Assembly: GCA_013003535.1 (NCBI GenBank)
Contig: JABDIY010000062.1
Coordinates: 1-35,287, forward strand
Direction of reading: 5' to 3'
Length of the DNA stretch: 35,287 bases
Origin: Acidimicrobiales bacterium
Lineage (GTDB): Bacteria > Actinomycetota > Acidimicrobiia > Acidimicrobiales > SZUA-35
A program made the translations under genes and the position numbers. Of the stretch, positions 3,831 through 9,489 are shown one piece after another. The notes beneath the pieces were generated by a model. The model saw only the letters and a program-made list of their open reading frames with translations. It was not told where the DNA came from and searched no databases. The stretch's first letter is position 1, and every line of letters begins with the position of its first letter.

Positions 3831-3886
3831 AGGCTTCCCAAGCTACAGAGATTGGTTCGTCGGATGACCGTGCAGCGAACATCATG

Positions 3887-3937
3887 AAAACTGCCAGAGA
3901 CAAACCAAGGTGGCGACACCCTGATTTGCTCTGACAG
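3887..3937 (-). terminator. Probable intrinsic terminator of the repeat-protein gene
   Basis: On the minus strand, just downstream of the repeat-protein stop codon, CTGTCAGAGCAAA (3937-3925) can pair with TTTGTCTCTGGCAG (3904-3891), allowing one mismatch and one bulge. TTTT follows at 3890-3887. A stem plus T-run at this place fits a rho-independent terminator and would separate this gene from the luciferase-like gene. The 20-nt loop is long. Confidence 0.5.
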
Positions 3938-3962
3938 TCCTAGTGGTTAGCTATCCAAATTG

Positions 3963-6860
3963 CTAGCGACGCCTGTTGCGACGGCGCTTGTCGTCGTCGT
4001 CGTCATCATCATCATCATCATCGTCATCGTCATCGTCATCGTCATCATCATCGTCATCGTCGTCGTCATCGTCGTCGCGGCCGTTGTTGGCTTTCTTGGC
4101 TTTCTTGGCTTTGTCGGGTTTGACTTCGGTGACTTTGGTGACTGTGTTGTTTCGCAGGACAGGATCTGGCGTCGCTGAGCTGACTACGGCGGTGTTCTCA
4201 ACATTGTCAGTTCGATCGCTGTCGATCCGGACGACCAACTTGATCGGAGTGGACGTTTCGTCATCTCCAAGTTCAGCGCTCAGATTACAGGTCACTCTGG
4301 TGACTCGGGCATTGGTCCGGCAGACCCATCCGTCACCTGATGCGCTCAGGAACGTCGTCCCCTCGGGCAGCGTGTCGACTACTCTCACCCGTTCAGCAGG
4401 GTGCGGCCCTCTGTTGTCAACCTTGATGTTGTAGGTCAGTTTGTTGCCGGCCTTCATCTTCTGCGCACCATTCTTGCGAATTCTCAGGTCCGCGCTGTGC
4501 ACGACGTCAACCGAAACCCGATTTGACCGGGCCTGGGCAAGTGCCGTGCCGTCGAAGTTCTGACCATTGACCGTCGCTCGGTTACGAATGGGGTCTGCCT
4601 CGTTGTTCCGATGAGCCGGCACCGTATAGGCGCAGGTGTAGGTCCAGATTTCCCGAGTGTTCAACAAATCATTCTGGTTCCCACCCGTCTTCACCGGATC
4701 ACTGAGTGGACCGCACTGGTTGTCCCTCACCACAATGTTCCTGGCCGGTGCCCGGTCAGCACTGGCATAGGTCACAACCAACGTGTAATTGATCGTGTCC
4801 CCATGCCTCACCGACGTCTTGTCAGCACTCTTCACAATGCTGAGCGTCCCCCGATCATGCACAACATCAACCGACGCCGTCGCCGTAGCCGGTGTGAGGG
4901 GTGCGCCATCAAAGTTCTGGCCGCTAACGGTGGCAGTGTTCACAAGCGGGTTTGTCTCGAGGTTGGTGTGGCGTGGCACCGAATAGGCGCAGGTGTAGGT
5001 CCAGATTTCCCGAGTGTTCAACAAGTCATTCTGGTTCCCACCCGTCTTCGCTGGATCGGTCAACTCGCCACAAAGACTGTCGGTCACCACAATGTTCCTG
5101 GCTGGTGCCCGGTCAGCACTGGCATAGGTCACAACCAACGTGTAATTGATCGTGTCCCCATGACTCGCCGACGTCTTGTCAGCACTCTTCACAATGCTGA
5201 GGGTTCCCACATCATGCACAAAGCCCACGGAGACCGGGTTCGACCGGGCCTCGGCAAGTGCCGTGCCGTCGAAGTTCTGGCCGCTAACGGTGGCAGTGTT
5301 CACAATCGGGTCTTCAACGTTCCGGTGTCCCGGAGCTACGTAGGTACAGGTGTAGGTCCAGGTCTCCCGGGCGTTCAAGAAATCATTAGTGTTTCCACCC
5401 GTTTTGACCGGTCCAGTAATCCCGCTGCACCGGTTGTCCGTTACCGAGATGTTTTTGGCTGGCGCACGGTCGGCGCCTGGTGTGTAGGTGACTGCTAGTT
5501 CGTAGGTGATTGTTCCGCCATGCGCCACAATCGTCTTGTCAGCACTCTTCACAATGCTGAGAGTCCCCACATCATGCACTATGTCAATAGACACACTTGC
5601 TGTGGCCGGTGCCAGAGCCGTACCGTCAAAGCTCTGGCCGATAACGGTGGCAGTGTTCACAAGCGGATCCGCCTCGTTGTTCCGATGAGCCGGCACCGTA
5701 TAGGCGCAGGTGTAGGTCCAGATTTCCCGATTGTTGAGCAGATTGTTGGTGTTCCCCTCGGTCTTGACCGGATCGGTCAACTCACCGCAAAGACTGTCCC
5801 TCACCACAATGTTCCTGGCTGGCGCACCGTCACTGCTGAGGTGAGTCACCACCACCGTGTAATTGATCGTGTCCCCATGCCGCACCGACGCCCGATCCGC
5901 ACTCTTCACAATGCTGAGCGTCCCCACATCATGCACAACATCAACCGATGCCGTCGCCGTAGCCGGTGTGAGGGGTATCCGCTCATAGTTCTGACCACTC
6001 ACCGTCGCCGTGTTGACGATCGGATCATCCTCGTTGTTCCGATGAGCCGGCACCACATGCGTGCACGTGTACACCCACGTCTCCGACCCAGCCAAGCGGT
6101 TGTTGTCATTTCCCGGAGCATCAGGCTGACGAATCAAATCAGTGCACTGGTTATCGGTGACCTCCACGTTCCGGGCCGCAGCACCATCAGCGCCCGGCTC
6201 ATAGGTCACGTTCAACGTGTAAGTAACCGTGTCTCCATGATCGGCCGCCGTCACATCAGCAGTCTTGGTGATACGAAGCGTCCCCGAATAATGATTCACA
6301 TCAACATCAACTGAGTTCGACAGTGCTCGTGCCAAGGGCAGTTCGTTGTTTCCTTGTACGCCAATAACCTCAGCCTGATTGCTGATCGGGTCCGGCTCGT
6401 TATTCCGATGAGCCGGCACCACATAGCTACAGGTGTACACCCACGTCTCTCCGGGGTTGAGCCGGTCGTTGGTGTTGCCGTCGTTCTTGACTGGCCCACT
6501 GATCGGCGAGGAGCAACCGACATCCTGGACCACAATCTTCTGCGCCCAAGAAAACGGCCGAATGCTGCTGGGAATGAACTGCACCATCATCGTGTAGGTA
6601 ATCGTGTCCCCATGATCCGCCGACGCCTTATCAGCAGACTTCACAATGCTGAGCGTCCCCACATGGTTATTTGCGGAAACCGGCTGGGCTGCGAACAGAG
6701 AAACCAGCCCAAAAATCATAGAAAGAACAACAAAAGCAATTCCTGCACGCGATCGTCGTTTCGGCAGAGTGCGTTGCTCAACCGACTGAGCTTCGAGTCG
6801 GTAACCAACCCTGGTGGCGCGGGCCGCCTTGTCTACGAGCGCGCTAAGGACATTCTTCAT
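3963..6860 (-). CDS. Secreted DUF11/DUF7507-like repeat protein with poly-aspartate tail
   Basis: The 965-residue protein has a long basic N-region, a hydrophobic segment (about 41-58) and a likely signal peptidase site near VSA-NN (about 63). Six repeats of 119-125 residues start at G68, 193, 313, 432, 552 and 671. Each has GTLSIVKSAD, HGDTxxYT, a conserved Cys pair (...C... and WxYTC) and a VNTATVxGQ end, as in DUF7507/DUF11 Ig-like surface modules. A distinct DUF11 module (about 789-908, ending VENTAVVSS...PDPVLRNNT) follows. A Lys/Ala linker leads to 29 consecutive Asp (929-957) and KRRRNRRR. There is no LPXTG motif or C-terminal membrane anchor. The role is inferred to be a cell-surface or matrix protein; an acidic tail of this kind could bind divalent cations. 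GGAGG lies 9 bp before the ATG. Confidence 0.9.
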   Translation of the reverse strand: MKNVLSALVDKAARATRVGYRLEAQSVEQRTLPKRRSRAGIAFVVLSMIFGLVSLFAAQPVSANNHVGTLSIVKSADKASADHGDTITYTMMVQFIPSSIRPFSWAQKIVVQDVGCSSPISGPVKNDGNTNDRLNPGETWVYTCSYVVPAHRNNEPDPISNQAEVIGVQGNNELPLARALSNSVDVDVNHYSGTLRITKTADVTAADHGDTVTYTLNVTYEPGADGAAARNVEVTDNQCTDLIRQPDAPGNDNNRLAGSETWVYTCTHVVPAHRNNEDDPIVNTATVSGQNYERIPLTPATATASVDVVHDVGTLSIVKSADRASVRHGDTINYTVVVTHLSSDGAPARNIVVRDSLCGELTDPVKTEGNTNNLLNNREIWTYTCAYTVPAHRNNEADPLVNTATVIGQSFDGTALAPATASVSIDIVHDVGTLSIVKSADKTIVAHGGTITYELAVTYTPGADRAPAKNISVTDNRCSGITGPVKTGGNTNDFLNARETWTYTCTYVAPGHRNVEDPIVNTATVSGQNFDGTALAEARSNPVSVGFVHDVGTLSIVKSADKTSASHGDTINYTLVVTYASADRAPARNIVVTDSLCGELTDPAKTGGNQNDLLNTREIWTYTCAYSVPRHTNLETNPLVNTATVSGQNFDGAPLTPATATASVDVVHDRGTLSIVKSADKTSVRHGDTINYTLVVTYASADRAPARNIVVRDNQCGPLSDPVKTGGNQNDLLNTREIWTYTCAYTVPAHRNNEADPIRNRATVNGQNFDGTALAQARSNRVSVDVVHSADLRIRKNGAQKMKAGNKLTYNIKVDNRGPHPAERVRVVDTLPEGTTFLSASGDGWVCRTNARVTRVTCNLSAELGDDETSTPIKLVVRIDSDRTDNVENTAVVSSATPDPVLRNNTVTKVTEVKPDKAKKAKKANNGRDDDDDDDDDDDDDDDDDDDDDDDDDDDDDKRRRNRRR
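3990..4076 (-). repeat. GAY trinucleotide microsatellite encoding 29 Asp
   Basis: Twenty-nine in-frame aspartate codons lie in an unbroken run, a mix of 15 GAC and 14 GAT. Stretches of pure GAC (five) and pure GAT (six) lie at the C-terminal end, with alternating GAC/GAT elsewhere. Such a tract is prone to in-frame slippage, which would change tail length without a frameshift. On the opposite strand the same DNA reads as a meaningless poly-Ser or poly-Val/Ile ORF. Confidence 0.95.
4500..6680 (-). repeat. Six intragenic repeats of about 357-375 bp
   Basis: The repeat units of the DUF11-like gene start (5' ends on the minus strand) near 6659, 6284, 5924, 5567, 5207 and 4850. The last two are almost identical over long stretches. 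For example, 4742-4803 and 5101-5162 differ at one base, and 4624-4684 and 4983-5044 differ at only one or two. This points to recent duplication or gene conversion. The first two units are the most diverged. Confidence 0.85.
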
Positions 6861-7521: not shown

Positions 7522-9489
7522 ATGGAGGGAGACGCATTAACCACTGATGGTCTTTCTCAGTGTGCTTTCGACCCTCTTGCTCTCCAGGCTGCTTTCGGCA
7601 CCACCGATGTCCCCACCTGGCTGACTGATCGGCTGCAGTCCGCTTTCGACAGGCTCGACACGTCGGCCATCGATCTGCGGGCCGGTGCCGCCACAATCGA
7701 CCTTAGGCAGAGTCCGGAATGGAACAACAATGTTCGGCTTCTCGTCCGAGCCCTCTTCGTTCTCCGTCATGGGCCGTCGAGCACCACAGGGGGCAGACTT
7801 CTAGAATTGATTGCTCGCCGCCTCGCCGCCGAGGGCCACGAACAACTGAGCGTCGCCGCCGCACATCTGTTCACCAACTATTGGCGGGCTGAAGCCGAAC
7901 CTCAAAGAGCGCAGGGGTTGCTCACTGACCTACTGGCCGCCATGACGTCCGAGACAGCGGCGGCCCACGCCATCCGTCAGGAACTCGTGTTGCTTCGCGG
8001 CACCACACTGCTCGAAGCCGGCTCCTTCGCCGAAGCAGAAAAATTCCTGCTTCACGAAGTGGCTCACCCTGACCCGTTTCAGTCTCTCCGGGACGAAGCA
8101 ACGCTGCTGGCGCTACGCAGCAAGGCGTCTCGCAAGATGGGCGATAGCGAACGGGCCCAGCTGCTTCTTGCAGACGCCGAGTCGCTGGTTTCAGAAAGCT
8201 CCGATGATGTGAGTCTGCTTCGGAGCGTCACCATCGAACATGCTCTGGCGGACACCAACGCCGAACTCCTTCGATTATTGGCATCTCGGGCAAGCCCTGA
8301 AATCCAAGATCCGCCCGAGGTAGAACTACTCGCCGCCACCGGTGAAGCCTTCGTCCTCTTGAGCGAGCGGAGGTTTCTCGAAGCCGATCAGCGTTTCGCC
8401 ACCATTTACCTCCAAGCCCGAAGGCAACATCTATGGCGACCCGCCGTGCGAGCTCTGACCGCTCGGGGTGTGGCCCGATGCAGCGATCGAGGTGTTGATC
8501 CAACCGCGCTGCAGTATTTGGCGCAGGCGGTTTTGTTGGCAGAGGACCGAACTGCGCTCGACCAGTTCAGCTTCGCCTTGGCCTCGTTGGGAATCGCCCA
8601 GCTGGAGGCAGGGTTGCTCAACGAGGCCCGCCAGACCCGGGATCGGTTGGAGAGCCAAAACCTTCAGGGGACCGATCGCTTCGATGCGGACCAGTTCGGG
8701 GCCGAATTGTCGTTGGCTCTGGGTGATTTGGAGGCGGTGCAGAACTACCTGCTCGCGGCCGATGAGGTAGCCGAGAGCCTCGCCACCTCCCAGGACACCG
8801 GTCAGCAGTGCCGCCTCTGGGCGGAGTACTACCGCCGCTCCGGCGATATCGATCAGGCCGTCTCTTATAGCCGGCGGGCTCTCCAGTGGCTAACAGGCTC
8901 CGCCAACGAATCCATGTGGCGAAGTGCGGCGCTGGAGGCCGCTCGATCATTCACCGCCGGTGGGGTGCCACTTCCCGAGGGAGCTGTGAACCCCAACCCC
9001 GGCGATCATCCGGCCGGTCTCGCCTTTGGCGCCCTCATTGACGCCGAGCTGAGCGGCGAAGCCGAGGACTTCCTCCAGGCGGCGCACTACATGACGAGGG
9101 CGCATCACCACTATGAAGCTTTGCGGGCAAAGCTCGGCGCCCTCAAGGCGTCGGCCAAAGTTCCGGGATTAGAAGCGGAAATCTCCATCACAGCCCGCTC
9201 CATGGGGGCCCGGTGGATCACCGAAGAAGTACTTGATTGGGCCAGCGGCACACTGGAGAACACCAACCTGCCGGCGCCACTGCCGATCACCATGCGCGAA
9301 GCTCAGGTGCTCGCCGGCTTGGCTCGCGGTCTTGGTAACAAAGCCGTAGCCGCCGAACTGTTCATCAGCGATCGCACGGTTTCCACCCACGTCTCCAACC
9401 TGATCAGGAAGCTGAAGGTGGCCAATCGGGCGCAGGCAGTGGCGTGGTGGACCTCCGAAGGCTCCGATCGCTATCCGCTGGCCAACTAG
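7522..9489 (+). CDS. LuxR-family transcriptional regulator with TPR-like N-terminal region
   Basis: The 655-residue protein ends in a clear LuxR-type (GerE) helix-turn-helix: ITMREAQVLAGLARGLGNKAVAAELFISDRTVSTHVSNLIRKLKVANRAQAV (about residues 592-643). The preceding 580 residues are rich in Ala/Leu/Glu helices (for example LRDEATLLALRSKASRKMGDSERAQLLLADA), resembling the TPR-like region of large LuxR/MalT-type regulators. No Walker A motif is present, so it lacks the STAND ATPase that such proteins often carry. The signal sensed is unknown. It is divergent from the repeat-protein gene across a palindrome-rich region and may control itself and that gene (inference). The start ATG fits a leaderless transcript. 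Confidence 0.85.
   Translation: MEGDALTTDGLSQCAFDPLALQAAFGTTDVPTWLTDRLQSAFDRLDTSAIDLRAGAATIDLRQSPEWNNNVRLLVRALFVLRHGPSSTTGGRLLELIARRLAAEGHEQLSVAAAHLFTNYWRAEAEPQRAQGLLTDLLAAMTSETAAAHAIRQELVLLRGTTLLEAGSFAEAEKFLLHEVAHPDPFQSLRDEATLLALRSKASRKMGDSERAQLLLADAESLVSESSDDVSLLRSVTIEHALADTNAELLRLLASRASPEIQDPPEVELLAATGEAFVLLSERRFLEADQRFATIYLQARRQHLWRPAVRALTARGVARCSDRGVDPTALQYLAQAVLLAEDRTALDQFSFALASLGIAQLEAGLLNEARQTRDRLESQNLQGTDRFDADQFGAELSLALGDLEAVQNYLLAADEVAESLATSQDTGQQCRLWAEYYRRSGDIDQAVSYSRRALQWLTGSANESMWRSAALEAARSFTAGGVPLPEGAVNPNPGDHPAGLAFGALIDAELSGEAEDFLQAAHYMTRAHHHYEALRAKLGALKASAKVPGLEAEISITARSMGARWITEEVLDWASGTLENTNLPAPLPITMREAQVLAGLARGLGNKAVAAELFISDRTVSTHVSNLIRKLKVANRAQAVAWWTSEGSDRYPLAN

Follow-up and report, generated by a model that had tools for sequence, protein, structure and literature searches.

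Introduction

DUF11 (PF01345) and DUF7507 (PF24346), two Pfam families that have been renamed CLIPPER and CLIPPER_2, are stalk domains of fibrillar adhesins (PMC12617251). Both kinds of domain have a Lys–Asn isopeptide bond within the molecule, along with a catalytic Asp (PMC12617251). In a survey of fibrillar adhesins, nearly half had no known anchor, and further anchor motifs were suggested to await recognition (PMC8286594). For tethering of a protein by a poly-Asp tail through a basic patch, a precedent is the EMRE–MICU1 pair (PMC4892889). No bacterial report of such a tail was found in the literature with the terms used.

The window analyzed here, a stretch of 35,287 nucleotides, is an entire contig of a 4.0-Mb, 221-contig draft genome of an uncultured Acidimicrobiales bacterium. 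It encodes a secreted, rod-like surface protein with a stalk body of a known and ordinary kind and a tail that represents an uncommon variant of the C-terminus.

A secreted stalk of seven Ig-like domains

The stalk gene occupies positions 3963–6860 of the minus strand and is translated into a 965-residue CLIPPER-repeat protein with a TAG stop codon. In Pfam, where family membership was judged by the gathering score, the protein matches DUF11 with an E value of 2e-46 (157 bits, cut-off 24.6) and DUF7507 with an E value of 3e-36 (124 bits, cut-off 27). A manual repeat count gives six DUF7507-type repeats and one DUF11-type domain. The architecture originally described, with a signal peptide, six Cys-containing DUF7507-like repeats, one DUF11 domain, and a Lys/Ala linker, is confirmed. 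From the N-terminus, and all on the minus strand, the DUF7507-type (CLIPPER_2) repeats comprise residues 68–192 (6285–6659; K74-D113-N161, Cys116/Cys144), 193–312 (5925–6284; K199-D236-N283, Cys239/Cys266), 313–431 (5568–5924; K319-D355-N402, Cys358/Cys385), 432–551 (5208–5567; K438-D475-N521, Cys478/Cys505), 552–670 (4851–5207; K558-D594-N641, Cys597/Cys624), and 671–790 (4491–4850; K677-D713-N760, Cys716/Cys743). They are followed by the DUF11-type (CLIPPER) domain at residues 791–912 (4125–4490; K796-D829-N889, Cys847/Cys858).

The DUF7507-type repeats share 51–76% identity with repeat 5. All seven domains contain the Lys-Asp-Asn isopeptide residues and two Cys residues, with spacings of 33–39 from Lys to Asp and 83–93 from Lys to Asn (40/80 and 33/91 in the reference domains). 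Based on these residues, each domain is predicted to be stiffened by a Lys–Asn isopeptide bond and a disulfide bond. The model of repeat 5 (mean pLDDT of 90) is a predicted Ig-like β-sandwich, for which the best Foldseek match is a solved CLIPPER domain (9ifr, E value of 2.5e-4; VIA-align Z of 8.7 over 102 residues, rmsd of 2.8). Several other Ig-like folds score an equal or higher Z than 9ifr in VIA-align; thus, the Ig-like fold class is secure, and assignment to the family is based on sequence. The combination of CLIPPER families, Lys-Asp-Asn residues, Cys pairs, and an Ig-like fold identifies a stalk of the fibrillar-adhesin type, with the stalk repeats carried on a secreted protein. No head-domain family scored above threshold in Pfam or NCBIfam, and the repeats begin a few residues past the signal peptide. 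Among 397 genomes of the order, no close homologue of the stalk protein was detected at an E value of 1e-30 except for one 25% identical stretch, and the plasmid records searched contained DUF11 proteins only about 25% identical to it.

At the N-terminus, residues 1–64 (6669–6860, minus strand) have the features of a signal peptide: a basic n-region (KRRSR), a hydrophobic core, and the cleavage motif VSA|NN. The single hydrophobic segment of the protein lies at about residues 37–57 and is followed by PVSA|NN. As a small correction to the first reading of this sequence, the n-region that precedes the core is unusually long, at about 38 residues. The same segment (an n-region of ~38 residues, then FVVLSxxFGLVSLFxxQ) recurs in a solute-binding-type protein that has no other relation to the stalk protein, is encoded in the same genome and in a congener (loci L030, 272–2122, and L011, 25–1689, minus strand), and carries an ATA|Q site. 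No match to this long segment was present among the NCBIfam signal models.

Just past the stop codon, at approximately 3886–3942 of the minus strand, a strong hairpin is followed by UUUU (region z-score of −3.7). This probable terminator indicates that the stalk gene probably ends its own transcript. On the plus strand, a divergent gene at 7522–9489, separated from the stalk gene by a 660-bp gap, encodes a 655-residue LuxR-type regulator that may control the stalk gene.

An acidic tract and a basic cap at the C-terminus

The last domain is followed on the minus strand by a basic Lys/Ala linker, VKPDKAKKAKKANNGR (residues 913–928; 4077–4124), an uninterrupted tract of 29 Asp residues (residues 929–957; 3990–4076), and the basic cap KRRRNRRR (residues 958–965; 3966–3989), in agreement with the tract and cap originally described. 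The protein was also said to lack an LPXTG motif and a membrane anchor, and this holds: the C-terminus has no sortase signal (an LPXTG or LAXTG motif, a membrane helix, and a basic end), and no hydrophobic segment follows residue 64 anywhere in the 965-residue sequence. Relative to CLIPPER and CLIPPER_2 stalks, the protein is therefore alike in its Pfam match, Lys-Asp-Asn spacing, Cys pairs, and predicted Ig-like sandwich. In contrast to them, it is a stalk protein without a recognized head or anchor and has a basic linker, 29 Asp residues, and a basic cap instead.

The Asp tract, which is far longer than expected by chance given the Asp frequency elsewhere in the protein, measures 87 bp (14 GAT and 15 GAC codons); as the genome is a draft, the exact length may differ from this by multiples of 3 or 6. 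An assembly or sequencing error would be conceivable in a fragmented draft of 221 contigs, where repeats can be mis-sized. However, the mixed codons are unlike a pure repeat, the reading frame stays open to either side, and tails of this kind are present in independent genomes, which together make such an artefact exceedingly improbable. The sole match from a PDB sequence search, the acidic tract of nucleophosmin, was rejected as a match of composition only.

The third bases of the tract show a two-codon periodicity (p = 0.018), as do those of a poly-Asp tract in the congener G003 (p = 0.006); several measures were tried and these p values are uncorrected. This periodicity suggests slippage of a hexanucleotide unit. 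A shared DNA origin of the tails was considered and rejected: among ten pairs tested, these two tracts resemble each other in their third bases at a borderline level (p = 0.044), for which similar slippage accounts. Nor does stress on translation from acidic runs (intrinsic ribosome destabilization, EttA) explain the tail, since the EttA effect, as described, depends on acidic residues among the first 30 amino acids and the run here is at residues 929–957. Within the stalk tract, nine third-base blocks occur without any amino-acid change; the purity of Asp runs is shaped by how the runs were found and is therefore not clean evidence of selection.

Similar ends on unrelated secreted proteins

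The same type of tail, at the same C-terminal position, is present on choice-of-anchor-B proteins (TIGR04312) of the genus, although these have an unrelated body, 19 or 27 Asp residues, and a different cap. In the congener G004, the protein (E value of 5e-102) ends in D19-RKKKRRGNRSQRVS, and in G003 it ends in D27-HHHRSGHH. Both choice-of-anchor-B genes of the genus carry the tail, and both were located by a family search rather than by the tail itself. A C-terminal poly-Asp tract with a short His/Arg cap is also found on ExeM/NucH nucleases (NF033681), which differ from the stalk protein in having an unrelated body and a His-rich cap: those of the Acidimicrobiales OFTM81 and OFTM89 end in D14-HHRHRR and D26-HHRRR. 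Over 810 aligned residues, the two nucleases share 92% identity, and 149 of 745 identical residues are encoded by different codons. The tail thus persisted while the length of the tract changed by 12 Asp residues. An acidic tract with a basic or His/Arg end thus recurs on three unrelated secreted families in Acidimicrobiales. The cap sequence varies between the tailed proteins, and a basic cap is missing from some poly-Asp ends. Five genus genomes were scanned for basic residues that follow an acidic run; among the hits examined, one clear C-terminal poly-Asp protein was present in each of the source genome, G003, and G004, and none was present in G001 or G002.

At the position of the tail, all three families show variation in the style of choice-of-anchor proteins. 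DUF11 proteins carry either poly-Asp or, in G003, LAFTG or LPVTG followed by a membrane helix. ExeM proteins carry poly-Asp, a short tail, or LPATG, the last followed in one relative by a helix and RRR. Choice-of-anchor-B relatives without poly-Asp mostly have short Lys/Gly/Arg-rich ends (GKGKGKGNRS, VSKKKMR, RTSKGKGHQK), and one, in G023, is extended at the C-terminus by a longer and different sequence. These short basic ends show that a basic end is the wider feature and suggest that, in this family, the Asp block has been inserted ahead of it, on the C-terminal side of the folded domain. Sortases are encoded in all five genus genomes, with two in the source genome.

On a broader scale, runs of at least 10 Asp residues were found in 5 of 30 Acidimicrobiales genomes and in 7 of 366 other sampled Actinomycetota (Fisher p = 0.001), a count that includes non-C-terminal tracts as well as some C-terminal tracts without a basic cap. 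In a scan of genome contigs for 12 Asp residues plus polar or basic residues, 13 of 48 tracts lie 25 residues or less from the C-terminus, compared with 4.1 expected for a uniform distribution; as a match required the tract to be followed by four polar or basic residues, the frequency of a basic cap is not deducible from this ratio.

Discussion

We tentatively propose, with a confidence somewhat short of even, that this protein combines a stalk of the fibrillar-adhesin type with a disordered, charge-patterned tail that slippage has expanded and that retains the protein non-covalently in the envelope or matrix. The secreted stalk of seven Ig-like CLIPPER domains, each with a predicted isopeptide bond and disulfide bond, would be held at the cell surface or in the extracellular matrix by a presumably disordered linker, Asp block, and cap, located where relatives have a sortase signal. 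The basic ends of the tail would attach to anionic polymers of the envelope. The Asp block may bind divalent cations or patches of basic residues, among them the basic ends of neighboring copies. Slippage of 3- and 6-base units would lengthen or shorten this block. The tail of EMRE and the KKKKR patch of MICU1 similarly pair a C-terminal Asp run with a complementary polybasic stretch (PMC4892889); EMRE, in contrast, is a eukaryotic mitochondrial membrane protein with 5–7 Asp residues, and acid and base are on separate proteins, making the comparison an analogy only. The original interpretation of the tail is supported in part: attachment or charge pairing fits its recurrence on two other families in related bacteria, and cation or mineral binding would be a further candidate role. 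The length of the tract, however, is not conserved, and the original condition for refutation, homologues lacking the tail, applies in part, as the choice-of-anchor-B relatives outside the genus have no poly-Asp.

As a substitute for sortase signals on secreted families that are unrelated to each other, the tail is a concrete candidate for the anchors that the survey of fibrillar adhesins suggested are still to be recognized. If it binds metals or matrix, changes in length by slippage would provide a simple means of tuning surface attachment. The broader proposal, that an acidic block with a basic cap is an unrecognized, sortase-independent module for surface or matrix retention, gained repeatedly by unrelated secreted proteins of Acidimicrobiales and other bacteria and tuned in strength by repeat-length slippage, we regard as rather unlikely.

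Several observations run against retention. Each tailed genus genome shows only one such acidic/basic C-terminal tail, the cap is unconserved and sometimes absent, the two sortases of the source genome would have offered a covalent route, and the stalk protein has no close homologue in which conservation of the tail could be followed. The main rival is that the poly-Asp tract represents a low-complexity expansion that is tolerated: slippage of 3 or 6 bases would have lengthened a short acidic stretch within a disordered C-terminal tail, with little or no function. The two-codon periodicity in two tracts, the tract lengths of 14 and 26 Asp residues in the 92% identical orthologous nucleases, the relatives outside the genus that lack poly-Asp, and the many unrelated contexts of long Asp runs, commoner in Acidimicrobiales, are all consistent with such growth. 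Against this reading stand the recurrence of the tract on three unrelated secreted families, at the very end of the protein and just ahead of a basic or His/Arg terminus, the bias of the D12-type tracts toward C-termini, and the unchanged Asp across nine third-base blocks, a point weakened by ascertainment. Tolerated expansion is, in our judgment, quite possible if on balance doubtful, and the present data do not separate it firmly from retention.

Two further explanations concern how the protein would be anchored. Since the stalk protein has neither a head domain nor a C-terminal anchor, and its hydrophobic core is preceded by a basic n-region of unusual length, an uncleaved signal peptide could act as an N-terminal membrane anchor, with the stalk pointing outward and the charged tail as a distal adhesive tip. 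This arrangement is improbable given the good VSA|NN cleavage site and the ATA|Q site that accompanies the same N-terminal segment in the solute-binding-type protein. Alternatively, the tail could be a dedicated sorting signal that is recognized and processed by an unknown enzyme, in the manner of sortases, exosortases, and rhombosortases. Although the tail replaces known anchors at an equivalent position in the DUF11 and ExeM families and occurs on a choice-of-anchor family, it has no conserved motif, no membrane helix, and a variable cap. A dedicated sorting signal is normally carried by many proteins in a genome. With about one tailed protein among the scan hits examined in each of G000 (the source genome), G003, and G004, and none in G001 and G002, a genome-wide sorting tag was rejected as the main reading, and a dedicated sorting machine is very unlikely.

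Asp runs were also observed in other settings. The source genome encodes a second poly-Asp run, D11, which forms an internal linker followed by EEAQDRR in a 1136-residue secreted protein (L029, 4536–7943; G000:C90:97201). Small zinc-ribbon-like proteins with CPKCRGVWLDRGELEK-type motifs, from several genera, one of them a Chloroflexi bin (L016, L036, L041, and L097), contain D8–13 and then Arg-rich stretches near the C-terminus. In cyanobacterial proteins (L062, L064, L078, L079, and L096), 14–29 Asp residues precede a conserved end containing NCNQGIGNG..EGCDPGNSRPHGGSNDEGGRTPG. Finally, OFTM89 has two adjacent secreted genes with Asp-rich tracts (L148, 7348–9034; G419:C1), one of which has a D/H-rich end.
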